DNA of 64,000 nucleotides from Geovibrio ferrireducens (lineage in GTDB: Bacteria > Chrysiogenota > Deferribacteres > Deferribacterales > Geovibrionaceae): the NCBI RefSeq assembly GCF_026226615.1, contig NZ_JAJAPB010000005.1:186001-250000 (forward strand), in the 5' to 3' direction. The number at the start of each line of letters is the position of its first letter. Position 1 is the stretch's first letter. The notes under the pieces are model-generated. The model made no database searches and was not told the origin of the DNA. It worked only from the letters and a program-made list of their open reading frames with translations. Positions 28,090 through 39,039 of this stretch are shown piece after piece. The position numbers and the translations under genes are program-made.

Positions 28090-28185
28090 TATAAAAAATT
28101 CGCCCTCCGTGGGAATTTTTTATACACGCTCGCGGCGGGATAAACCCGCCTTCGCTCGCACGGCGCGCTCCCTTCCATGGGAGCG
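28090..28185. repeat. Three-hairpin repeat element, copy A
   Basis: Three stem-loops joined by conserved linkers. Hairpin 1 has arms TATAAAAAATTC / GAATTTTTTATA (28090-28101, 28113-28124). Then comes CACGCTCGCGG, hairpin 2 GGCGGG / CCCGCC (28134-28150), linker TTCGCTCGCACGGCG, and hairpin 3 CGCTCCC / GGGAGCG around TTCCAT (28166-28185). The linkers match copies B and C, while stem sequences differ but still pair. Confidence 0.82.
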
Positions 28186-28201
28186 GGGGGCGGGGAGTGT
28201 T

Positions 28202-29476
28202 TTATATCTGCGCCAAAGCCTGTGCAAAGTCTTCCTTAATATCTTCAATGTGTTCTATGCCGACGGAGACGCGGATAAGCTCATCAGGGGAGCCTGCGGC
28301 TCTTCTGCCTTCGCTGGAAAGTTGCCTGTGGCTGGTGCTTGCGGGGTGAGTGACGAGGGTGCGCACATCGGCGAAGTTTGCCACATGGTTAGCTATCTTA
28401 AGTGCCTCAATAACCTTTACAGCCGCATCCAGACCGCCCTTCACGCCGAAGCTGAGCACCCCTGAGCCATAGCCTTTCAGGTACTTGTCAGCCCTTGCCT
28501 TATTGAGGCTTCCGGGAAGCGCGGGGTAGTTCACCCACTCAACCTTTTCATGCTCCTGCAAAAACTGCGCAAGGGAGAGGGCATTTTCAGAGTGAGCCTT
28601 TATTCTGAGATGCAGGGTTTCTATACCCTGTAAAATGTAAAACGAGTTCTGCGGCGAGAGGCATCCGCCCGCATCACGCAGGGCTTCAACACGCACCTTC
28701 ACACCGAAAGCCGCCGCACCGAAGGTTTCTGCGAATTTAAGTCCGTGATAGCTGGGGTTCGGCTCGGTAAATGAAGGGAACCTTCCTGAGCCTGCCCAGT
28801 CGAACGTGCCCAGATCGATAACCACCCCGCCCATGGAGTTGGCGTGTCCGCCTATGTATTTCGTCAGCGAATGTATGACTATGTCCGCCCCGAAGTCCTT
28901 CGGGCGGCAGAGAAGCGGTGTCGCCTGCGTACTGTCCGCAATGAGCGGAAGCTTATGCTTTTTGGCTATGGCGCTCCACGCCTCGAAGTCTGCTATGTCG
29001 CATGACGGGTTGCTGATGGTTTCTATGAACAGAGCTTTGGTTTTTTCGTTTATCGCCTTCTCCACCGCCTCAAAGTCATACTGATCAACTATATTCACCT
29101 TAACTCCGAGGTTGCCGAGAAAGTAAGTGAAAAGGTTAACCGAGCCGCCGTAAAGTCTGGATGAGGAAACAATTTCATCACCCGCGCCGGCGATAACGCT
29201 TATTGCCGCAAATTCCGCAAAGTGACCGGAAGAGGTTACCACCGCATGCACACCGCCTTCAAGCTGGCAGAGCCTCTCCTCAAGAACAGCAGTGGTGGGG
29301 TTTGTTATGCGGGTGTAGATATGCCCGAACTCTTTTAGATCAAAGAGATTTCTGGCATGTTCAATGTCGCGGAACTGGTAAGCGTTCGTCTGGTAGATAG
29401 GCACTGTGATAGAGCCGTTGTGCTCTTCGGGTTTATAGCCCCCTCTTACGGCTATGGTTTCCTGTCTGTGCGGCAT
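28202..29476 (-). CDS. metY: O-acetylhomoserine aminocarboxypropyltransferase (MetY)
   Basis: PLP-dependent enzyme of 424 residues that makes homocysteine from O-acetylhomoserine and sulfide in methionine synthesis. The family features are IYTRITNPTTAVLEERLCQLEGG, the PLP lysine in IVIHSLTKYIGGHANSMGG, and RFPSFTEPNPSYHGLKF, typical of O-acetylhomoserine sulfhydrylases rather than cystathionine synthases. Its leader carries a SAM-I riboswitch followed by a terminator, so the gene should be shut off when SAM is plentiful. The 3' end has been partly duplicated downstream next to a repeat. Confidence 0.93.
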   Translation of the reverse strand: MPHRQETIAVRGGYKPEEHNGSITVPIYQTNAYQFRDIEHARNLFDLKEFGHIYTRITNPTTAVLEERLCQLEGGVHAVVTSSGHFAEFAAISVIAGAGDEIVSSSRLYGGSVNLFTYFLGNLGVKVNIVDQYDFEAVEKAINEKTKALFIETISNPSCDIADFEAWSAIAKKHKLPLIADSTQATPLLCRPKDFGADIVIHSLTKYIGGHANSMGGVVIDLGTFDWAGSGRFPSFTEPNPSYHGLKFAETFGAAAFGVKVRVEALRDAGGCLSPQNSFYILQGIETLHLRIKAHSENALSLAQFLQEHEKVEWVNYPALPGSLNKARADKYLKGYGSGVLSFGVKGGLDAAVKVIEALKIANHVANFADVRTLVTHPASTSHRQLSSEGRRAAGSPDELIRVSVGIEHIEDIKEDFAQALAQI

Positions 29477-29523
29477 AGTTTCCTCCTCTGGATACCGGGG
29501 GACGGGGAAAATAATTCGGCTAT

Positions 29524-29555
29524 AAAAAAACCCTGACCGTCAGGAACGATCAGGG
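29524..29555 (-). terminator. Riboswitch-controlled terminator upstream of metY
   Basis: On the minus strand arms CCCTGA / TCAGGG (with an alternative inner CCTGA / TCAGG pairing) are followed by seven T. Located between the SAM-I aptamer and the metY start, it is the expression platform: formed when SAM is bound, giving early termination. Confidence 0.88.
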
Positions 29556-29590
29556 GCTTATGAGTCTTATAACCGGAGAATCTGTCTCCG

Positions 29591-29698
29591 CCTATCTGCC
29601 CCTGAAAATATTATAGGGCGGGAGTTAGCACCTTTACGCGTCTGTGCGCAGGGTTGCTGCGGCTTCGCAGGGCCCGTCCCTCAGCCGCTCTGGATAAG
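29591..29698 (-). promoter_or_regulatory. SAM-I (S-box) riboswitch aptamer
   Basis: On the minus strand the S-box landmarks occur in order: CTTATCCAGAGCGGCTGAGG (P1, kink-turn side), GGGCCCTGCGAAGCC, GGCAACC-equivalent GCAGCAACCCTGC, AAAGGTGCTAACTCC and closing GGCAGATAGG that pairs with the start. This is a SAM-binding leader of the type found before methionine and cysteine genes; the gene controlled here is metY. Confidence 0.94.
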
Positions 29699-29839
29699 CA
29701 TATACACAGGATAAAGCATATTTTTCTTTTGTCAAGACAAAACCTATAGATTTACTATGTATTACACAGCGCTTTATAGATTGAAAATAGGAGGAATTAG
29801 TCTATAATCCTTAGGAATCCGCTGATACAGGTTATTTAT

Positions 29840-32572
29840 ATGATTAACGGCAAACCGAGAATCTCCGTAACAACCCTCAATATACTTAATGTGCTGTTTA
29901 TCTTTGTGTCATTCATAATGCTTATCGGTTATTTCCTTTTTTACGAAGCGGAAAAGGAGTTCGAAACCCGCGCCGGAAACATCCGCGACCGATTCATAGA
30001 AACCCAGAAAGCCAACATAAAAACCGAAATCGGGCGCGCCGAGGCGAAGATAGAGAATATGCGCCTCATGCGTCAGGAAACGATCCGCATCTTTCTGAAA
30101 AACAGGGCGGAAAACGCTGAGGATATTCTAAAAAAACTCTATGCGGCAAATGCTCCGCAATCATTAATCACTCAGACTCTGGACAGCCTGAAATGGGACA
30201 ACGGAACAGGCTACTGCTTTGTTTTCGACAGTAACGGCAAATTTATTTTCCACGGCGGAAACAACAGCCTGACCGGAACCAGCATATTCAGCATTGTAGA
30301 AGGGAACGAGGGGCTGGAAAAGTTTTTGGCCGATCTTGAGGGAAAGAACGAAACTTTCGGTCACTATGACTGGATTAAGCCTGCGGCGGACAAAAACGAC
30401 CTTTATCCCAAAATAGCTTTCGCAAAATATGTCCCCGAACTGGGCATCTACATCGCAGCCGCTTCCTATACCGAATTTCAGGATGCATATCTCAAAAAAT
30501 ATATTCTGGAGCTTTTCCGTGAGGAACGCTTCGGCTATAACGACTATGGCTATTTCTTCATTATGGACGCAGACTACAGAGTGCTTCTGCATCCGGTAAT
30601 GAGCGAAATCGAAAATATGAGCACCTTTGACATAACCGACTCAAAGGGGAACAACCTGGGCAGCCTGTTCTCCGAAGCGCTCAAAAGCACTGATTCAGCC
30701 TATGTTTCATACTACTGGAAAGCTCCGAAAGGGCAAGAACCGGAAGAAAAAGTCACTTACATGGCTAAAATCTCCGCGTGGGACTGGATAATCGCCACAG
30801 GGTTTTACTCCAGCGATTTCAACACTTATCTCGACAGGGAAAGCAGAGAACTGAAAGAGGTCTTCCACAATGACCTTATACGCATCTCCGCACTGCTGGC
30901 GATCATTGTCCTCATAACAGCACTGATAAGCATATACATAAACGTGCATATAAGAAAAATAGAGAAAAGCCGACTGCGTGAAATGAACATGCTGGAACAG
31001 TACAAGCTTGTTCTGGACGAGTCATCAATCGTCTCCAAGACAGACCCTCAGGGGCGCATCAACTATGTCAATGACAAGTTCAGCACCACCACTCTCTACA
31101 GCAAAGATGACGTAATCGGCCGCTCCCACAATGTGGAACGCCACCCGGCCACACCAAGGGAAACCTTCCGCAGGATGTGGGAAACCATAAGCAGCGGCAG
31201 AGTATGGCACGGAGTGCTCAAAAACAAAAAAGCCGACGGCACAAGCTATTACAAGAGTGCCACCATCGTGCCTCTTAAAGATGAGGACGGGCACATAATC
31301 GAATACATATCATCCGGTCATGACATAACGGAGCTCATGGAGAACAGGGACAGGCTTGAAAATATTTTCAACACGGATGTTCTCACCAGCTTAGGAAGCA
31401 GGATGAAGCTTCTGGCGGATATAGAAAGAACAGAGAAACCCGTTCTGGGGCTCCTTGATATTGACCGTTTCAGCGCTGTAAATGACCACTACGGAAACAA
31501 AACCGGAGACGGGGTCATAAGGGAAACCGGGTCATCCATTTTCCGCAGACTCAGCAGGAAGCCCTACTCCTTTTACCGTGTGAATGCCGATACCTTCGCG
31601 GTTCTCGCTGACGGGGCGGATATTGAACAGTTCAAAAACGACATCAGGGACGTTCAGTACAGCATAGCCTCAACAGGAGTTAAAATAGGCAGCGAAGAGA
31701 TACCCATAACCCTGAGAAGCGGCATAGCATACGGCAGCAGGGACGTTCTGGCATATGCAGACATGGCTCTGAACAACGCAAAGGCAAGAAACGCCGACTA
31801 CTATGTTTACGACCCCGCGGATATGCAGATGGCGGCAAACTACGGCAAAGATATTGCAGTGCTGAAAAGCATTTATGCTGCCATAAAGAATGATAAGGTT
31901 TTCCCGGTGTTCCAGCCAATATACAATATAGCCACAGGCAGAATCGAGAAATACGAGTGCCTCATGCGGGCGGAGGATGAAACCGGGCAAATCCTCACCC
32001 CAGGCGACTTCATGGATATAAGCAAGAAAACAAGGATATATCCGAGACTCACGCTTATCATAATAGAGAAATCAGTGCAGAAGTTCAAAAACCTTCCGTA
32101 TGAGTTTTCCATCAACCTCACCATTGAGGATCTGATGAATGATGAAACAATGGAATACCTGATCACTTACGCCAAAAGCCACGATGTTCTCAGCAGGCTT
32201 GTGATCGAAATCGTGGAAACGGAGGAGCTTCAGGGGTTTGAGGAAGTGCTTACCCTGCTCAGGGAGTTCAAGAATCATGGTGTGAAAATAGCCATAGACG
32301 ATTTCGGCTCAGGTTACTCAAACTTTGAATACCTCATAAAGCTCAACGCGGACTATGTGAAAATAGATGCAGGCATAATGAAGCATGTGCTTGAAGATGA
32401 AAGGGCAACAGAGATTGTCCGCTCCATAGTCACCTTCGCCAGACAGACCGGTGTCCGGACAATAGCGGAGTTTATCAGCAGCGAAGAGCTTCTGAAAGCC
32501 GCCGACAGCCTCGGTGTGGACTATGCGCAGGGCTACTTCATCGGCAAACCGGAAAGGGAGCTGGCGGGCTAA
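29840..32572 (+). CDS. Cache-PAS-GGDEF(degenerate)-EAL protein, likely c-di-GMP phosphodiesterase
   Basis: Membrane signalling protein of 910 residues. Order: transmembrane helix (12-35), two Cache-type periplasmic modules with LPEL/YIAAASYT-like and WIIATGFYSSDF endings (to about 335), second helix (ISALLAIIVLITALISIYI), PAS (about 390-500), GGDEF-like domain, EAL domain. The cyclase motif reads NADTF in place of GGDEF, so this half should be catalytically dead and perhaps a GTP sensor. The EAL half keeps the catalytic residues: ECLMR (E for the EAL Glu), SINLT, EIVETEE, AIDDFGSGYSN, VKIDAG and QGYFIGKP. Its stop overlaps that of the convergent SDR gene. Confidence 0.88.
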   Translation: MINGKPRISVTTLNILNVLFIFVSFIMLIGYFLFYEAEKEFETRAGNIRDRFIETQKANIKTEIGRAEAKIENMRLMRQETIRIFLKNRAENAEDILKKLYAANAPQSLITQTLDSLKWDNGTGYCFVFDSNGKFIFHGGNNSLTGTSIFSIVEGNEGLEKFLADLEGKNETFGHYDWIKPAADKNDLYPKIAFAKYVPELGIYIAAASYTEFQDAYLKKYILELFREERFGYNDYGYFFIMDADYRVLLHPVMSEIENMSTFDITDSKGNNLGSLFSEALKSTDSAYVSYYWKAPKGQEPEEKVTYMAKISAWDWIIATGFYSSDFNTYLDRESRELKEVFHNDLIRISALLAIIVLITALISIYINVHIRKIEKSRLREMNMLEQYKLVLDESSIVSKTDPQGRINYVNDKFSTTTLYSKDDVIGRSHNVERHPATPRETFRRMWETISSGRVWHGVLKNKKADGTSYYKSATIVPLKDEDGHIIEYISSGHDITELMENRDRLENIFNTDVLTSLGSRMKLLADIERTEKPVLGLLDIDRFSAVNDHYGNKTGDGVIRETGSSIFRRLSRKPYSFYRVNADTFAVLADGADIEQFKNDIRDVQYSIASTGVKIGSEEIPITLRSGIAYGSRDVLAYADMALNNAKARNADYYVYDPADMQMAANYGKDIAVLKSIYAAIKNDKVFPVFQPIYNIATGRIEKYECLMRAEDETGQILTPGDFMDISKKTRIYPRLTLIIIEKSVQKFKNLPYEFSINLTIEDLMNDETMEYLITYAKSHDVLSRLVIEIVETEELQGFEEVLTLLREFKNHGVKIAIDDFGSGYSNFEYLIKLNADYVKIDAGIMKHVLEDERATEIVRSIVTFARQTGVRTIAEFISSEELLKAADSLGVDYAQGYFIGKPERELAG

Positions 32573-33288
32573 TCCTCATATATCATCTTCACAGTCATTC
32601 CGCCGTCCGCAGTGAAGCTTTGCCCTGTAATAAACTTCGCCTCATCTGAAACCAGATAATAAGCAAGGGATGCTATATCCTCCGCCTTTCCCACCCTGCC
32701 CGCCGGGTGCTGTGCGTGATCCCTTTCCGATGTTCTGTAACCTGAAACATTTATCCAGCCGGGGCAGATGCAGTTCACCCGGACATCAGGGCCGAGGCTC
32801 ACGGCGGAAGCGTGGGTGAGAGCTGTCAGCCCGCCTTTGGACGCGGCGTAGCTCTCTGAGTTTTTCTCAGACTGAAAAGCCCTTGTGGAAGCCATATTTA
32901 TTATGCTGCCGTTTGTTTTTCTCAGGTAAGGCACACAGTGCTTGGTCATAAGAAATGCTCCGGTGAGGTTCACGCCGATCACCCTGTTCCACTCCTCAAG
33001 GCTCAGGCTCTCCACCGGCTCCGTAAAAGGGTTTGCTATGCCTGCGTTATTTATAAGCGCATCTATCCGCCCGAATCTTTTTACACATCGTTCGACACAG
33101 GCTTTCACGCTCTCCTCTGATGCCACATCTGTAACCGCAAAGTCAGCACCGTCAATACTGCGCGCCGCCTCCGGACATGCTTCCCCGTTTATATCCGCGA
33201 TAAACACCGACCAGCCTTTTCCGGCGAAGTATGAGGCGCAGCCGAGACCTATTCCGCCTGCTCCGCCTGTAATCAGCACACATTTCAT
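32569..33288 (-). CDS. Short-chain dehydrogenase/reductase (SDR)
   Basis: Classical NAD(P)-dependent SDR of 239 residues. Motifs: TGGAGGIG (cofactor loop), NNAG, catalytic Ser in INMASTRAF, YAASK with Tyr and Lys, and a C-terminal TGQSFTADGG. An acidic residue at the end of strand 2 (FIADINGE) favours NAD(H). The substrate is unknown. The ATG at 33288 follows AGAGGG by six bases; a TTG-started frame six codons longer is less likely. Confidence 0.9.
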   Translation of the reverse strand: MKCVLITGGAGGIGLGCASYFAGKGWSVFIADINGEACPEAARSIDGADFAVTDVASEESVKACVERCVKRFGRIDALINNAGIANPFTEPVESLSLEEWNRVIGVNLTGAFLMTKHCVPYLRKTNGSIINMASTRAFQSEKNSESYAASKGGLTALTHASAVSLGPDVRVNCICPGWINVSGYRTSERDHAQHPAGRVGKAEDIASLAYYLVSDEAKFITGQSFTADGGMTVKMIYED

Positions 33289-33424
33289 AAATATCCCTCT
33301 TTTCAATGAATTATTCAGCGTTATTTTTGTCCGGATAATGTTAAAAATTGCATCTGGGTAAAAAATAGCATCGAATATTACTGTAAATAATATAATATAC
33401 CCTGAGTTATTTGGAGGAAAATTT

Positions 33425-34288
33425 ATGAAATATGCAGCAGCCTTGTTTTTGTGTCTTTTTTCTGTTCATGCCTTGGCAGCGGAAATAGGTTTCATCGGCG
33501 GCTTCACCAGCCCTGATGACCTTGGTGCAGCCTACTACGGGGCAGAGGTTTCCGAAACAATCGACATACCGAACAATCATAAGCTTAAACTCTCCGCAGA
33601 TTATAAAATGACCGATTTCAACGATGCGGCAGGCTTCATGCCGGACACCCTGACTCAGGCTGCTCTGGGAATTGATATAGAGGGACATGAATATCTGCTC
33701 AATATGAAGGCAGGAGTATCGACTGATGAGCCGTTTGAGGAATCGGACGGTTATTTCGTCGGAATCGTGGCGGCAAAAAAGATTTACGAAACCGGACCGC
33801 ATAAATTTTATCTCGGACTGGTTGCCTCTAATAAGGAGCTTTTGGACGACATGTACGTTCTGCCCGCCTTCGGGTATTCCTACACTGCCCCAAACCTTTA
33901 CATTCTGGCGGGTTCGCTTAATATGATTAAGTGGAAACCGGCGGAGAAGGTAAGCTTTGAGGCCTCGCTCTCCATTCTGGGACAGGGCAAAGTGAAGGGA
34001 ACTTACCACTGGTCGGACGATTTCAGAACTTCTCTGGTATACTCAAACAATACGGACACATTTTATCTGGGCAAAGACTACCCGGAGGATTCGGAGCTTA
34101 GGCTGCGCATAGCCTCAGTAAGCCTTGAGGCTGAAAAGGACATCAGCAGCTACGCAAGGCTGGTACTTTCCGCAGGGATGATCACCAGCGCCAGATATTA
34201 TATTGTTGATGACGATGACGAAGTTCTCCGCGATCAGAAAGTTAACGGCGGAGCAACAGGCAGCGCCGAACTGCGCATAATGTTCTAG
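33425..34288 (+). CDS. Predicted outer-membrane beta-barrel protein
   Basis: Secreted protein of 287 residues with a clear signal peptide (cleavage about ALA-AE at 20). The remainder alternates polar and aromatic residues in short strands (HKFYLGLVASN, LYILAGSLNM, SFEASLSILG, RTSLVYSN, SELRLRIASVSLE) and ends in Phe (SAELRIMF), the usual barrel-insertion signal. I do not recognise the family beyond a DUF6268-like pattern; a porin or outer-membrane sensor is possible. GGAGG precedes the ATG. The methyltransferase follows by eight bases. Confidence 0.75.
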   Translation: MKYAAALFLCLFSVHALAAEIGFIGGFTSPDDLGAAYYGAEVSETIDIPNNHKLKLSADYKMTDFNDAAGFMPDTLTQAALGIDIEGHEYLLNMKAGVSTDEPFEESDGYFVGIVAAKKIYETGPHKFYLGLVASNKELLDDMYVLPAFGYSYTAPNLYILAGSLNMIKWKPAEKVSFEASLSILGQGKVKGTYHWSDDFRTSLVYSNNTDTFYLGKDYPEDSELRLRIASVSLEAEKDISSYARLVLSAGMITSARYYIVDDDDEVLRDQKVNGGATGSAELRIMF

Positions 34289-34296
34289 GAGAAATA

Positions 34297-34974
34297 ATGG
34301 AGTTCTACCGCATACTCGCAAAAGCTTATGACGAGGTTTTCCCTTTTTCGCAGACCACATTCGACTTCCTCAGGCTGCACGCCGCGGGAAGAGTTCTGGA
34401 TGTCGGCTGCGCCACCGGAGCCTATGTAAAAAGGTTCCATGGGGAAGGATTCAGCGCAGAAGGCATTGAGTATGTTCCCGAACTCATTAAATACACCGAA
34501 AATATATCCGCCGGAGATATGCGCCGCCTGCCGGAAAGCTTCTCCGGCAGATTTTCCCTTGTGTACTGCATAGGCAACACCCTCGCCCACTGCACAGACA
34601 CTGCGGACGCAGAAAATATCCTCGGCGGATTTGCCCGCACCCTGCAAAGCGGAGGAAAGGCGGTAATCCAGATACTTAACTACGCCCGTATACTGAAAAA
34701 CCGCCCCCTCAGTCTGCCCCTTATCGAAACTGACAGAGTGCGTTTCGTCAGGGACTACACCTACGCGGAGAACAGCATCAAATTCACAGGGACACTCACC
34801 GCAGACAGACAGACATCCTCTTCATCCGTAATGCTTTATCCTCTGACCCATACTGAGCTTTCCACAGCTGCCGCACAGGCGGGCTTTTCATCATGTGTCC
34901 ACTACGGCGATTTCAGCGGCAGTAAGTTTGACGAAGCTGAAAGCTTCATGCTTGTCAGCGTTCTGGGCAAATAA
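34297..34974 (+). CDS. Class I SAM-dependent methyltransferase
   Basis: Cytoplasmic methyltransferase of 225 residues. The SAM-binding motif I reads VLDVGCATGAYV, followed by an acidic end of strand 2 (GIEYVPE), GDMRRLP and LVYCIGNTLAHC (motif IV). The acceptor substrate is not deducible. The gene begins eight bases after the barrel-protein gene with AGGAG in the gap, so the pair is probably one transcript. Confidence 0.85.
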   Translation: MEFYRILAKAYDEVFPFSQTTFDFLRLHAAGRVLDVGCATGAYVKRFHGEGFSAEGIEYVPELIKYTENISAGDMRRLPESFSGRFSLVYCIGNTLAHCTDTADAENILGGFARTLQSGGKAVIQILNYARILKNRPLSLPLIETDRVRFVRDYTYAENSIKFTGTLTADRQTSSSSVMLYPLTHTELSTAAAQAGFSSCVHYGDFSGSKFDEAESFMLVSVLGK

Positions 34975-35046
34975 CAAAAGCTTTTATTACCATCAGTTCG
35001 TTAGGCAGACGTTTCAAAAAACTTTGATTCTCCTTTCATGTTAAGG

Positions 35047-35095
35047 TTGTCAAAATTGTCAGATTACGGTTATATTCCTGTCAGATTTTTGTCAT
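35047..35095 (+). promoter_or_regulatory. Pho-box-like TGTCA repeats and promoter of the Na/Pi transporter
   Basis: Four TGTCA-containing heptamers occur: TTGTCAA at 35047, TTGTCAG at 35056, CTGTCAG at 35078 and TTGTCAT at 35089. The last pair has the exact 7-4-7 spacing of the Pho box, and 35056, 35078 and 35089 are in 11-base register. TTGTCA at 35047, 18 bases and TATATT at 35071 form a plausible sigma-70 promoter. Confidence 0.6.
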
Positions 35096-35110
35096 CCAAA
35101 GGAGCATTTT

Positions 35111-36778
35111 GTGACGTCATCGGACTGGTTTAACCTGATTGCGGGACTCTTCGGCGGTCTCGGTCTATTCATATTCGGCATGAAGCTCATGTCCGAAGCA
35201 CTTCAGAAATCCGCAGGACAGGGTCTCAAAAAAGCCCTCGAAAAGCTTACTAGCAACAGATTCGTGGGAACATTTGTCGGACTTGCGGTCACAGCTATAA
35301 TACAAAGCTCCTCAGCAACCACCGTAATGGTTGTCGGTTTTGTCAACGCCGGGCTGATGAGCCTTACTCAGGCACTCAGTGTTGTTCTGGGTGCAAACCT
35401 CGGTACAACAGTCACAGCGCAGCTTATCGCATTTGACATACACGCTTTTGCGCTCCCCGCCATAGCCATAGGCATGATGCTTAAAATGTTCTCCAAGGAT
35501 GTTATGAAACAGTACTGGGGCGAGATTCTTCTCGGCTTCGGTATGCTCTTCATCGGTATGGAGATCATGAAGGACGGCTTTGTCCCCTTACGCAAGACCG
35601 ATGGTTTCAGGGATATGTTCGTATTCTTCTCCAGCAACCCCATCCTTGCGGTGAGCGCAGGCGCACTTCTCACCGTTTTAGTGCAGAGCTCCTCAGCCAC
35701 CATAGGTATTACCATAGCACTGGCAACCACAGGGCTTATAGATTTCTACGGCGCATGCGCCCTTGTTCTCGGTGAGAACATAGGCACAACAATAACAGCC
35801 AACCTTGCGGCCATAGGGACAAACCGCACGGCAAAACAGGCGGCATTCGGCCACTTCCTCCTTAACTTTATCGGTGTTGTGTACATGCTGTTCATACTGC
35901 GTTATCTGGTGGATTTCGTTAACTATGTCACTCCGGGAGATGCGGACTTAGTGGCGGCAGACGGCTCCAAGCCCAATATAGCACGCCACATCGCCAACCT
36001 GCACACAATGTTCAACCTGATTAACATGCTTGTGTTCCTCCCCTTCATCCACTATCTGGCCAGACTGTGCGAAGTCATAATCAAACCGGACAAACCGGAT
36101 GAAAACAGGATGGTGCGCCTCAGCGACAATATAATGAGCACACCCTCAATAGCGGTTGAACAGGCTAAAAAAGAAGTCCTGCGCATGTCAGGCTATGCGG
36201 GCAGCATGGTGGAAGCTACCGGAAAATACCTTGTAAACGGCGATGAATCAGGCCTTGCGGATGTTAAAGTCTTTGAGGGGCATCTGGACACGTTCGACAA
36301 GGAAATATCTGCGTTCCTCGTTAAGCTGTCCATGAAAAACATCAGCCAGAACTCCGCAAACCAGATCAATAAGATGCACCATGTTGTCCATAATCTGGAA
36401 AAAATCGGCGACTATTCCGAAAGCATATATAACTCAATCAAGAAAATCAGAAAAAAACAGATAGTTTTCAGCCCGGAAGCCAATGAAGAACTGAGAGAAA
36501 TTTATGACGTTGTACAAAGCTTCTACAGGCATACCATGAACTGTTTCATGAACGGTGCTTTAAAAATCGATACAGAAGATGAAGACATCATAGACAGCAT
36601 GAGAAAACGTTTTAAGAAGAACCATGTGAAAAGGCTCAACGCCGGAGAGTGCACCATTGATGCCGGGCTGATTTATGTTGATATACTGAACTGCCTTGAA
36701 AAAATAGGCGACCATACATTCAACATTGCGCAGGTTCTTATGGCCGGAGAGAGCGCCGCAATCGGCAAACCGCACTAA
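35111..36778 (+). CDS. Na+/phosphate cotransporter (NptA/YjbB type) with C-terminal PhoU-like domain
   Basis: Inner-membrane Na/Pi transporter of 555 residues. The first half has two inverted Na_Pi_cotrans repeats, each with the QSSSATT-type signature: IIQSSSATTVMVVGF and VLVQSSSATIGITIAL. After about residue 340 it is cytoplasmic, with two PhoU-like three-helix segments (HHVVHNLEKIGDYSESIYNSI and CLEKIGDHTFNIAQ). GTG is the start, six bases after AAAGGAG. Pho-box-like repeats lie just upstream and a PhoR-like kinase gene just downstream on the other strand. Confidence 0.9.
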   Translation: MTSSDWFNLIAGLFGGLGLFIFGMKLMSEALQKSAGQGLKKALEKLTSNRFVGTFVGLAVTAIIQSSSATTVMVVGFVNAGLMSLTQALSVVLGANLGTTVTAQLIAFDIHAFALPAIAIGMMLKMFSKDVMKQYWGEILLGFGMLFIGMEIMKDGFVPLRKTDGFRDMFVFFSSNPILAVSAGALLTVLVQSSSATIGITIALATTGLIDFYGACALVLGENIGTTITANLAAIGTNRTAKQAAFGHFLLNFIGVVYMLFILRYLVDFVNYVTPGDADLVAADGSKPNIARHIANLHTMFNLINMLVFLPFIHYLARLCEVIIKPDKPDENRMVRLSDNIMSTPSIAVEQAKKEVLRMSGYAGSMVEATGKYLVNGDESGLADVKVFEGHLDTFDKEISAFLVKLSMKNISQNSANQINKMHHVVHNLEKIGDYSESIYNSIKKIRKKQIVFSPEANEELREIYDVVQSFYRHTMNCFMNGALKIDTEDEDIIDSMRKRFKKNHVKRLNAGECTIDAGLIYVDILNCLEKIGDHTFNIAQVLMAGESAAIGKPH

Positions 36779-36785
36779 TTAACAA

Positions 36786-36877
36786 GGTCAATCAGTGCGT
36801 CCTGCCGGATTGACCCACACGCTCGCGGATTGCAGGGCAATCCTTCGCTGCGCACGGCGGCGGCACATCCATGTGCC
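36786..36877. repeat. Three-hairpin repeat element, copy B
   Basis: Same architecture as copy A. Hairpin 1 arms are GGTCAATC / GATTGACC (36786-36793, 36808-36815), the linker CACACGCTCGCGG, hairpin 2 GGATTGC / GCAATCC (36827-36843), linker TTCGCTGCGCACGGCGG and hairpin 3 GGCACAT / ATGTGCC (36862-36877). A truncated second hairpin 1 with nearly the same loop (GTGCGTCCTGCC) follows at 36890-36917. It sits between the Na/Pi transporter and the convergent kinase gene. Confidence 0.82.
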
Positions 36878-36889
36878 TTCACCCAACAA

Positions 36890-36969
36890 CATCAATCATC
36901 CGTGCGTCCTGCCGGATTGACCTACAACCCTTTAAAGGCTGCTGTCATTGCGAACGCCAGTGAAGCAAT
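36890..36969. repeat. Truncated repeat B' and an ATTGC/GCAAT hairpin
   Basis: At 36890-36917 TCAATC and GATTGA arms enclose the same GTGCGTCCTGCC loop as in copy B, but the rest of the element is missing. At 36947-36969 arms ATTGC and GCAAT enclose GAACGCCAGTGAA, resembling a CATTGCGA...GAAGCAATCTC motif seen scattered in many bacterial genomes. Confidence 0.5.
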
Positions 36970-36995
36970 CTCTCAGTATTCTTAAACCTTACACA

Positions 36996-38702
36996 TCACT
37001 CCGGCTGCGTAATGCGCACCTTAAAGGTGTTGCCGCCCCTGCTGTTGGTTTCAAGGGTTATGCCGCCTCTGTATAATCTGCATATATGCTTGACTATGGA
37101 AAGCCCTAGCCCTGTGCTTGAGATATTCTTATTTCTGGATTTTGAAACAGTGTAGAAGCGCTCAAATATTCTGTCCCGCTCCTCGGCAGGGATGACGGGG
37201 CCGCCGTCCTCCACATCAAGGCAAAATTCATCCGCGGTGCTGAGCATTCTCACCTCTATATAATCCTTCCCTGAGTAAGCGACAGCATTCTCTATGAGAT
37301 TCGTGACAAGGCTCGAAAGGTGCGCCCTGTTCACCCTGACAGGCTCTCCTTCCGCAGTAATTTTCATTCCGGGGGCGAATTTATCCGAATAGTAATCCCT
37401 GAGTTCCTCAGCGTATTCGGCCGGGTCCGTCTCCTCTTCGGTTTCAATATCCTCCGCAGAGGATGATTCGTATCTGTGCAGTTCTATAACATCATTAATA
37501 ATCTGGTTAAGCTGGGTTGTCCCTTTATAAACCTTGCCGAGGAACTTATCCCTGTCCTCCGGCTTCATGTTCGGATGCTCCATAAGCGTTTCCGCATACC
37601 CCATAACCAGCGCCAGCGGTGTTTTAAGTTCGTGGGAAATATTGGTTATAAGCTCGCTCTTGTATTTGCTGTAGCGTTCGCTGTCGGTTATATCCGTGAG
37701 CACGATGATTCTTGAGCCCTCCATGAAGCGCACATACAGTTCATAAACCGCATTCTGGAGTTCGTACACCTTTGTGCAGTCCGTTTCGTAGGAGAGGATC
37801 TCCTTAGCCAGAACTATGGCATCCCTGTCAGTTACCTTAGCCAGAACATCATCCCCCTGCCTGAGCAGGCAGCCGAGAATTTTTTCAGCCCTTTTATTGG
37901 CAAGTTCCACCCTGCCGTTTTCATCCAGCTTGATTATCCCCTCCTCAAGGAGATTAACCAGACCGTTCAGCTTTTTCTTTTCCGCCTCAAGTATGTGCTT
38001 CTGTTTCTCCAGAGCGTTGTATGTCCGGTATATCAGCCCCGCGACCTTATCCATCAGCCTGCTTTTGAAAATAGGAAAAACAGGCGGTCTGCCGCTTTCT
38101 ATATCCTCAACAATGCGGCTTATCTTCACCACTGGTCTGCTCACTCTCAGGCTTATGAACCACAGCACAGCGAAAAGAACGGCAAAAAGCCCCAGAAAGG
38201 TGGCGTAGGCCTGTTCCTTCATCTTTTTTTTCAGGCTTTCCACATAAAGCATGGGGTAGGCTATGCGCAGAACATTCCCCCCTTCTTTAAGCTCCTTCGC
38301 GTAATATATCATCCGCTGCCCGGTTGTTGTACTGAAACGCTTCTCCATCCCTTCGCCGTTTTTGAAGGCATCCTGAATTTCCGGGCGGGAACTGTGGTTT
38401 TCTATTCCAGGCACGGAATCCGCCGCCACATAGGAATCATCGATAACCACACCGTCCGAGCTGATAAGAGTAATCCGCAAGGGGGCTGCCCGGCTTATGG
38501 ATTCAAGCCTCGCTCTGGCTTCATGCGGGGGGAGCTCAAGCACTCCGGACGCGTTTATTATCTCCCACTTGTTTTTAAGCTCGTTGACAAGCTCATTCTC
38601 CGCATTGATGAGCAACTGCTTCTGATAAGTGAAAAACATCAGCAGTGTCACACACATGACAGGAATTATTATAAAAGAGAAAAGACGTATGTATATCCTC
38701 AT
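36996..38702 (-). CDS. PhoR-like membrane sensor histidine kinase
   Basis: Two-component sensor of 568 residues: helix 1 (about 4-22), periplasmic domain to about 165, helix 2 (ATFLGLFAVLFAVLWFISL), HAMP-like linker (VSRPVVKISRIVEDIESG), PAS domain, HisKA with the phospho-acceptor in NISHELKTPLALVMGYAETL, and HATPase with NLIENAVAYSG, STGLGLSIVKHI. The layout matches PhoR/PnpS. No response regulator gene is adjacent, so its partner is elsewhere. Nearness to the Na/Pi transporter with Pho-box-like sites suggests phosphate sensing, as inference. The ATG at 38702 follows AAGGAG by six bases; the frame is open into the upstream repeat. Confidence 0.85.
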   Translation of the reverse strand: MRIYIRLFSFIIIPVMCVTLLMFFTYQKQLLINAENELVNELKNKWEIINASGVLELPPHEARARLESISRAAPLRITLISSDGVVIDDSYVAADSVPGIENHSSRPEIQDAFKNGEGMEKRFSTTTGQRMIYYAKELKEGGNVLRIAYPMLYVESLKKKMKEQAYATFLGLFAVLFAVLWFISLRVSRPVVKISRIVEDIESGRPPVFPIFKSRLMDKVAGLIYRTYNALEKQKHILEAEKKKLNGLVNLLEEGIIKLDENGRVELANKRAEKILGCLLRQGDDVLAKVTDRDAIVLAKEILSYETDCTKVYELQNAVYELYVRFMEGSRIIVLTDITDSERYSKYKSELITNISHELKTPLALVMGYAETLMEHPNMKPEDRDKFLGKVYKGTTQLNQIINDVIELHRYESSSAEDIETEEETDPAEYAEELRDYYSDKFAPGMKITAEGEPVRVNRAHLSSLVTNLIENAVAYSGKDYIEVRMLSTADEFCLDVEDGGPVIPAEERDRIFERFYTVSKSRNKNISSTGLGLSIVKHICRLYRGGITLETNSRGGNTFKVRITQPE

Positions 38703-38723
38703 AGTTGGCTCCTTAATATTATT

Positions 38724-38818
38724 ATCACAAATTTTTATCCTTAAAAATTTGTGATACACGCTCGCGGTTTGCAAAGGCAAACCTTCGCTGCGCACGGCGC
38801 ACTCCCTTCCATGGGAGT
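38724..38818. repeat. Three-hairpin repeat element, copy C
   Basis: Hairpin 1 arms ATCACAAATTTTTA / TAAAAATTTGTGAT (38724-38737, 38742-38755), linker ACACGCTCGCGG, hairpin 2 GGTTTGC / GCAAACC (38766-38783), linker TTCGCTGCGCACGGCGC, hairpin 3 ACTCCC / GGGAGT around TTCCAT (38801-38818). Compared with copy A, hairpin 3 has a G-to-A change in one arm matched by C-to-T in the other. It lies in the leader or promoter region of the PhoR-like kinase. Confidence 0.84.
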
Positions 38819-38827
38819 GTTAAACAT

Positions 38828-38886
38828 TATTATCACAAATTACTCTCTATCATTAAAAATTTGTGATACACGCTCGCGGTTTGCAG
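38828..38886. repeat. Three-hairpin repeat element, copy D (truncated tandem copy)
   Basis: Begins like copy C with ATCACAAATT and AAATTTGTGAT arms but a longer loop, keeps the linker ACACGCTCGCGG and the first arm of hairpin 2 (GGTTTGC), then stops at 38886. Copies C and D are direct repeats about 105 bases apart. Confidence 0.75.
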
Positions 38887-38923
38887 AAGGAAAAACAGTG
38901 TGTTTCGCCTTTCGTACTAACCT

Positions 38924-38941
38924 CCCCCTTAATAAAGGGGG
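38924..38941. repeat. CCCCCTT/AAGGGGG hairpin
   Basis: Seven-base-pair stem with AATA loop, followed by a second G-run (GACAGAGGGGGATTTTT) on the plus strand. It is 98 bases past the haem-kinase stop on the minus strand but has no U-tract in that direction. Similar CCCCCTTAATAAGGGGG hairpins occur in other genomes; the role is unknown. The rest of 38703-39039 holds no gene. Confidence 0.45.
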
Positions 38942-39039
38942 ACAGAGGGGGATTTTTATCCGTTAAACGGACAGACATATCGGCATCATTATAATTATTA
39001 GCATGAAGACAAAAGAAAAGAAACTGTTCCGGCTGAAGG

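Follow-up and report, generated by a model that had tools for sequence, protein, structure and literature searches.

The DNA analysed here, a 64,000-nucleotide stretch of a Geovibrio ferrireducens contig (NZ_JAJAPB010000005.1, positions 186,001 to 250,000; the window), carries three complete copies and one truncated copy of an intergenic repeat of roughly 100 bases, in which three hairpins (HP1, HP2 and HP3) are separated by two linkers. We found that, when the repeat is read on the minus strand, the loops of two of the hairpins, there called HP1' and HP3', match published binding sites of the RNA-binding proteins CsrA and RsmE. These data suggest that the element is probably a transcribed, modular CsrA-binding RNA that lies beside many genes, both transcription and binding being read from sequence patterns. 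An earlier note on this DNA had read the less informative strand and overlooked the most revealing feature, the invariant A(N)GGA loops of the complementary strand.

GGA loops on the minus strand

On the minus strand the parts follow each other in the order HP3', linker 2', HP2', linker 1', HP1'. Among the 93 even-centred HP3 loops of this genome, A, G, G and A were invariant at 97, 97, 95 and 99%, and both N positions took all four bases. The loop read CANGGANG in 80 of these 93 and in 48 of 55 from the congener G002, giving the pattern C[ANGGAN]G. HP1 loops were CAGGANG or CANGGANG, that is C-AGGAN-G or C-ANGGAN-G, in 153 of 165 cases, and HP2, our internal control, showed A(N)GGA in only 2 of 135. 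A fixed A and GGA around a free N is not explicable by pairing across the loop. The same constraint was observed in evolution: in 39 ortholog pairs, which are not fully independent where they come from arrays and neighbouring copies, the A and GGA positions differed at 7/212 (3.3%) and the N positions at 16/80 (20%; p = 1.3e-5). Flanks of the same pairs differed at 15.5% and linkers at 2.6-4.6%.

CsrA ligands obtained by systematic evolution of ligands by exponential enrichment (SELEX) have the consensus RUACARGGAUGU, and the CsrB repeat is CAGGA(U/A/C)G (PMC7652899). The RsmE site is a hexaloop, ANGGAX, on a C-G pair, with pentaloops lacking the N in RsmZ SL3/SL4 (PMC4005645). By these definitions HP1' and HP3' both present an A(N)GGAN loop closed by a C-G pair, with A and GGA constrained and the N positions free. 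CsrA binding is, in our judgement, the best-supported explanation of the GGA loops and a fairly probable one.

The genome contains csrA, beside fliW. Its CsrA aligns with solved CsrA/RsmE chains, including 2jpp, and retains the RNA-binding residues, with the segments MLVLSR... and VSVHRKEI present; L4 and R44, which we take to be the RNA-binding positions in the usual numbering, are kept. Flagellin leaders (L330-L339) provided an independent control for the loop. In this genome, in both congeners and in one gene of G023, a more distant relative, they carry a CANGGANG hairpin about 40 nucleotides (nt) before the start, and their Shine-Dalgarno sequence contains another GGA, making a conserved CsrA-FliW control of flagellin likely in the genus.

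A large family of exchangeable hairpins

The earlier note had described copies A, B and C, in the order hairpin-linker-hairpin-linker-hairpin, and a truncated D. All were found at the positions given, except that copy C ends at 38819 and that linker 2 of copy A is one base shorter (TTCGCTCGCACGGCG). The stem changes it described were also present, including the G-to-A matched by C-to-T in hairpin 3 between A and C. The features are as follows, with parts in window order and the minus strand as the proposed RNA sense strand.

28090..28185, minus: copy A, three-hairpin element; HP1 28090-28124, linker 1 28124-28134, HP2 28134-28150, linker 2 28151-28165, HP3 28166-28185; sense-strand loops HP3' CAUGGAAG, HP1' CACGGAGG
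36786..36877, minus: copy B, three-hairpin element; HP1 36786-36815, linker 1 36817-36827, HP2 36827-36843, linker 2 36844-36859, HP3 36862-36877; sense-strand loops HP3' CAUGGAUG, HP1' CAGGACG
36996..38702, minus: histidine kinase gene (HATPase_c, HisKA); on its sense strand copy C lies just upstream and copy B downstream
38723..38819, minus: copy C, three-hairpin element; HP1 38723-38756, linker 1 38756-38766, HP2 38766-38783, linker 2 38784-38799, HP3 38800-38819; sense-strand loops HP3' CAUGGAAG, HP1' UAAGGAUA
38831..38886, minus: copy D, truncated; HP1, linker 1 and the start of HP2, with GGA lost from the HP1' loop

Linker 1 with at most one mismatch occurred at 100 + 44 sites in the genome, compared to 0 + 1 for the reversed control. 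A covariance model (R1), built from 22 copies, then matched at least 149 copies in this genome, where the best 150 candidates were scored, so that the family is larger than first described. The model matched at least 150 copies among the best candidates scored in the congener G002, and at least 97 in the congener G001. A Deferribacterales metagenome assembly (L031), the nearest named relative of the window, appears to represent the genome G001. In 1.6 Mb of G002, 157 elements were distributed over 73 loci, 44 of them arrays of 2-8 and 63 of them holding one to three modules. None of the 73 loci fell inside a called gene, as expected if the copies lie between genes. No Rfam family was matched by the element: the window region gave only the nearby SAM riboswitch, and four loci gave nothing above gathering scores. 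A literature search, in which subscription journals were thinly covered, yielded nothing relevant on the linker core strings, on Geovibrio palindromic repeats or on CsrA-binding interspersed repeats.

Compensatory double changes were observed in 19 of 25 predicted pairs among 22 copies, and in all 26 pairs of the three hairpins among 137 aligned copies. In the larger alignment, which was fitted to the structure so that its percentages lean towards it, paired cells amounted to 89.8%, compared to 58% in the shuffled control and 36-49% when the partners were slid. The covariation score was 0.72, compared to 0.18 and 0.08-0.15 in these two controls. The 39 ortholog pairs contained 32 double changes from one Watson-Crick pair to another, some of them from swaps, and 34 single changes that broke or weakened a Watson-Crick pair. 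Covariation and double changes between orthologs thus support the selection for structure that had been proposed. Stems measure 7-13 bp, and 97% of their pairs are strictly Watson-Crick; HP1 often contains one unpaired base, located two or three pairs beneath the loop. The linkers are nearly constant, linker 1 being ACACGCTCGCG in 100 of 135 parsed copies. In predicted folds the linkers can partly pair with one another around HP2'; the stretches involved are invariant and so offer no covariation evidence.

Stem types of HP1, HP2 and HP3 were unassociated among 96 unlinked copies (Mantel r about 0, p 0.32-0.45), and identical 16-base HP2 sequences recurred in up to eight copies with different neighbouring hairpins. 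At about seven orthologous sites (L127, L021, L139, L166, L172, L200 and L201) HP2 had been swapped whole, with HP1 and the flanks kept; at L127, for example, HP2 is CCGTGGTGAACACGG in this genome and GTTTGCAAAGCAAAC in G002, and at L139 HP3 differs as well. Covarying stems between fixed linkers are therefore better explained by hairpin exchange than by successive point compensations, although compensation of individual pairs may occur too. Slow compensation by way of G-U alone was rejected as the sole route, since wobble pairs are rare and whole HP2 units are swapped. We infer that recombination or template switching at the linkers they share transferred hairpin copies from one element to another.

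Comparison with G002 showed 47 of 63 syntenic sites to be common to both genomes, with flanks mostly 76-95% identical. The 13 sites without a copy in G002 had, on inspection, no clean junction of the kind (an empty site with a target duplication) that a miniature inverted-repeat transposable element (MITE) or simple transposon would leave. A recent transposon was rejected on these two grounds. The idea that the element adopts new stems as it moves gives way to a more specific one: most sites are shared, and hairpins are exchanged in place, as modules, between fixed linkers. The statement that no transposase is nearby can be extended for the repetitive extragenic palindromic (REP) type, as the whole genome gave no Y1_Tnp match (control genomes did; other transposase families were not searched), and the suggested link to a RAYT/Y1 transposase is not borne out.

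Other repeats were also seen. A repeat of form CCTCCCCCTTAATAAAGGGGGACAGAGGGGGATTT adjoins copy D at 38921-38957, with similar CCCCCTTT...AAAGGGGG repeats at many other loci of the genome. Further families with variable stems round a fixed core, e.g. TCATTGCGAACCCTGAAAGGGTGAAGCAATCTC, occur in the same intergenic regions as the element, at L027, L121, L128 and other loci, and related repeat forms with GCGAAGCGAAG look like linker 2 read on the minus strand. In G002, at the orthologous site of L114, an HP3 loop is apparently split by about 115 bases bounded by terminal inverted repeats (GAACTGTATCCTTTAATT ... TTATAGGATACAGTTC), which look like a small transposable element inserted there.

Neighbouring genes, strand and proposed mechanism

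Copy A lies 16 nt past the stop codon of a metY-like gene (28202-29476, minus strand), and at the orthologous site in G002 four tandem copies directly follow the same gene. Upstream of this gene we noted a SAM riboswitch (RF00162, 29589-29700, minus strand, 80.6 bits). Copy B is located between convergent genes for a Na/Pi cotransporter (plus) and the histidine kinase (minus); the site holds three tandem copies with different stems in L031 and no copy in G002. The HP1' end of copy C (locus L024; predicted RNA fold z = -5.6) is about 20 nt upstream of the histidine kinase start codon, with 28 nt separating its GGA from that of the Shine-Dalgarno sequence.

Copy C is one of 22 cases in this genome where HP1' ends shortly before a start codon. 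The genes, named from sequence without a family search, include accD, murG, dnaG, lexA, recA, folD, ribBA, carA, cmk, purD, rplJ and the histidine kinase of the window. In the 14 of these 22 whose Shine-Dalgarno sequence contains GGA, the distance to it from the HP1' GGA is mostly 23-38 nt, similar to the corresponding distances in the flagellin leaders. In counts that rest on home-made gene calls, the GGA strand was co-directional with the genes 46:13 (p = 2e-5), and a start codon was found within 45 nt on the HP1' side in 20/51 cases, compared to 2/18 on the other side (p = 0.04). Wobble asymmetry favoured the minus strand too, by 20:9 among the copies of this genome (p = 0.06) and by 15:6 among the changes between orthologs.

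Many copies begin less than 20 nt from a stop codon, divergent promoter regions are avoided and the folds are stable. An RNA element of the 3' untranslated region with another role (termination, exonuclease protection or RNase processing), whose GGA loops bind something other than CsrA, would account for this. We consider it quite improbable, since T-runs are not strongly conserved on either side and the loops fit ANGGAN position by position, which none of these roles needs. A Rho-independent terminator was rejected: no strong conserved T-run follows HP3, and the sequence past HP1' on the sense strand is not a T-run.

If the loops do bind CsrA, the element would be transcribed from the minus strand of the window, usually within the untranslated part of an mRNA after the stop codon and, for some twenty copies, immediately ahead of a Shine-Dalgarno sequence. 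Each module would show two CsrA/RsmE loops, HP3' and HP1', spaced by HP2' and the two conserved linkers, and a CsrA dimer could bind one or both. Near a start codon CsrA would span the gap between HP1' and the Shine-Dalgarno GGA and reduce translation, the mode of action proposed for the flagellin leaders. In other positions single modules, or tandem arrays of up to eight, may mark or stabilise the mRNA or titrate CsrA, under the control of FliW. At the DNA level, modules would multiply as tandem copies and trade hairpins by way of the linkers they have in common.

Within a single intergenic region, arrays of 4-8 modules present 5-14 CA(N)GGANG sites on the sense strand, compared to 0-4 on the other strand. 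The largest noted, an array of eight elements in a 1.6 kb intergenic region of G002 (G002:C1:571909-572903), has 14 such sites on the sense strand and is a candidate CsrB-like sponge RNA. The arrays, comparable with CsrB repeats (PMC7652899), could be the functional part of the family, titrating CsrA as CsrB does, with single gene-adjacent copies as by-products. This variant of the CsrA-binding reading, with which its probability overlaps, appears unlikely: most loci are not long arrays, and some twenty elements lie directly before start codons, e.g. those of dnaG, recA and murG. In addition, csrA is paired here with fliW, a setting in which, according to PMC4894983, CsrA can be controlled without sponge sRNAs.

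Related genomes and known systems

The same architecture, with diverged linkers, was found in further genera of this family and in a single genus belonging to a different one (G023, G029, G037, G038); in these relatives linker 2 is able to fold into a hairpin of its own (GTCGCTctcgcAAGCGAC in L144). In G023, AUACARGGAUGU, the exact SELEX consensus, occurs in 6/6 elements read. Other families of the phylum gave no elements at the stricter threshold and single weak matches otherwise, with a model that may miss diverged forms. All genomes with element matches have csrA, and none of the nine genomes (of 40) without a csrA match has an element match, a co-occurrence confounded by kinship and incomplete genomes.

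Several observations weigh against a CsrA-binding RNA. Many members of the order have csrA yet no detectable elements, and the conserved linkers are not explained by CsrA. The loop motif was identified post hoc, on inspection, and the loops were already part of the model with which distant genomes were searched. Most SELEX ligands of CsrA are short-stemmed (PMC7652899), compared to the 7-13 bp here, and the median GGA-to-GGA distance within an element, 64 nt, is at the upper end of the reported bridging range (10-63 nt). G-U pairs are rare on either strand (29/2582 pairs, both readings together), a scarcity that would be uncommon in a slowly evolving RNA and that fits stem renewal at the DNA level better. 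Finally, the GGA strand follows the leading strand of replication at 51/73 loci of G002, and at 16/19 convergent sites; with these numbers, gene direction and replication cannot be separated as the cause of the orientation bias.

Some of these points would suit a REP- or MITE-like palindromic DNA repeat without an RNA function, which multiplies and is kept uniform by gene conversion or template switching that takes place at the linkers. Such a process would maintain perfect complementarity of the arms and reshuffle the hairpins, and the loops would be constant only as part of the recognised DNA. The near absence of wobble, the independent reassortment of hairpins, the whole HP2 swaps at shared sites, the tandem arrays and the leading-strand bias even at convergent sites are all consistent with such a repeat. 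It is nevertheless rather unlikely, because the pattern of loop substitutions, with A and GGA fixed and both N free, is that of a known RNA-protein site, which recurs as the exact SELEX consensus in the distant G023. The one-sided proximity to start codons and the lack of a Y1 transposase also argue against it.

Interspersed repeats are common in bacteria and their roles mostly obscure; in this family each copy contains twice the recognition site of a specific RNA-binding protein, under base-by-base constraint. The family is also a natural record of wholesale stem exchange with loops kept. Should the binding hold, it would distribute a post-transcriptional regulatory site genome-wide and provide a mapped candidate Csr regulon for Deferribacterota, a phylum with little RNA biology. 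We tentatively propose, as a possibility somewhat short of even, that a self-multiplying, hairpin-swapping intergenic repeat has carried ready-made CsrA sites, by the hundreds, into the genomes of one bacterial family, placing many genes, with the core genes dnaG, recA, lexA, murG and accD among them, under a common post-transcriptional regulator: a repeat building a regulon.

Like the CsrA/RsmE hairpins of the glgC, flagellin and hcnA leaders and of RsmZ and CsrB, the element has GGA hexa- or pentaloops closed by C-G, with an A before (N)GGA and the N free, a subset near Shine-Dalgarno sequences and repeated sites in arrays. Unlike those targets, which have been described one by one (CsrB and RsmZ being single sRNA genes), it is a fixed three-hairpin module with conserved linkers and exchangeable stems, dispersed in about 150 copies per genome. 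It shares with the REP/BIME/REPIN repeats and their RAYT enzymes the short palindromic intergenic form, more than 100 copies per genome, arrays and a position near gene ends; it differs in having no Y1 transposase gene and in conserving linkers and loops rather than stem sequence. BOX of Streptococcus pneumoniae, Bcr1 and ERIC are mosaic, structured, intergenic composite repeats of unknown mobility. The element resembles them by description, but its modules covary and carry the loops of a protein-binding site.

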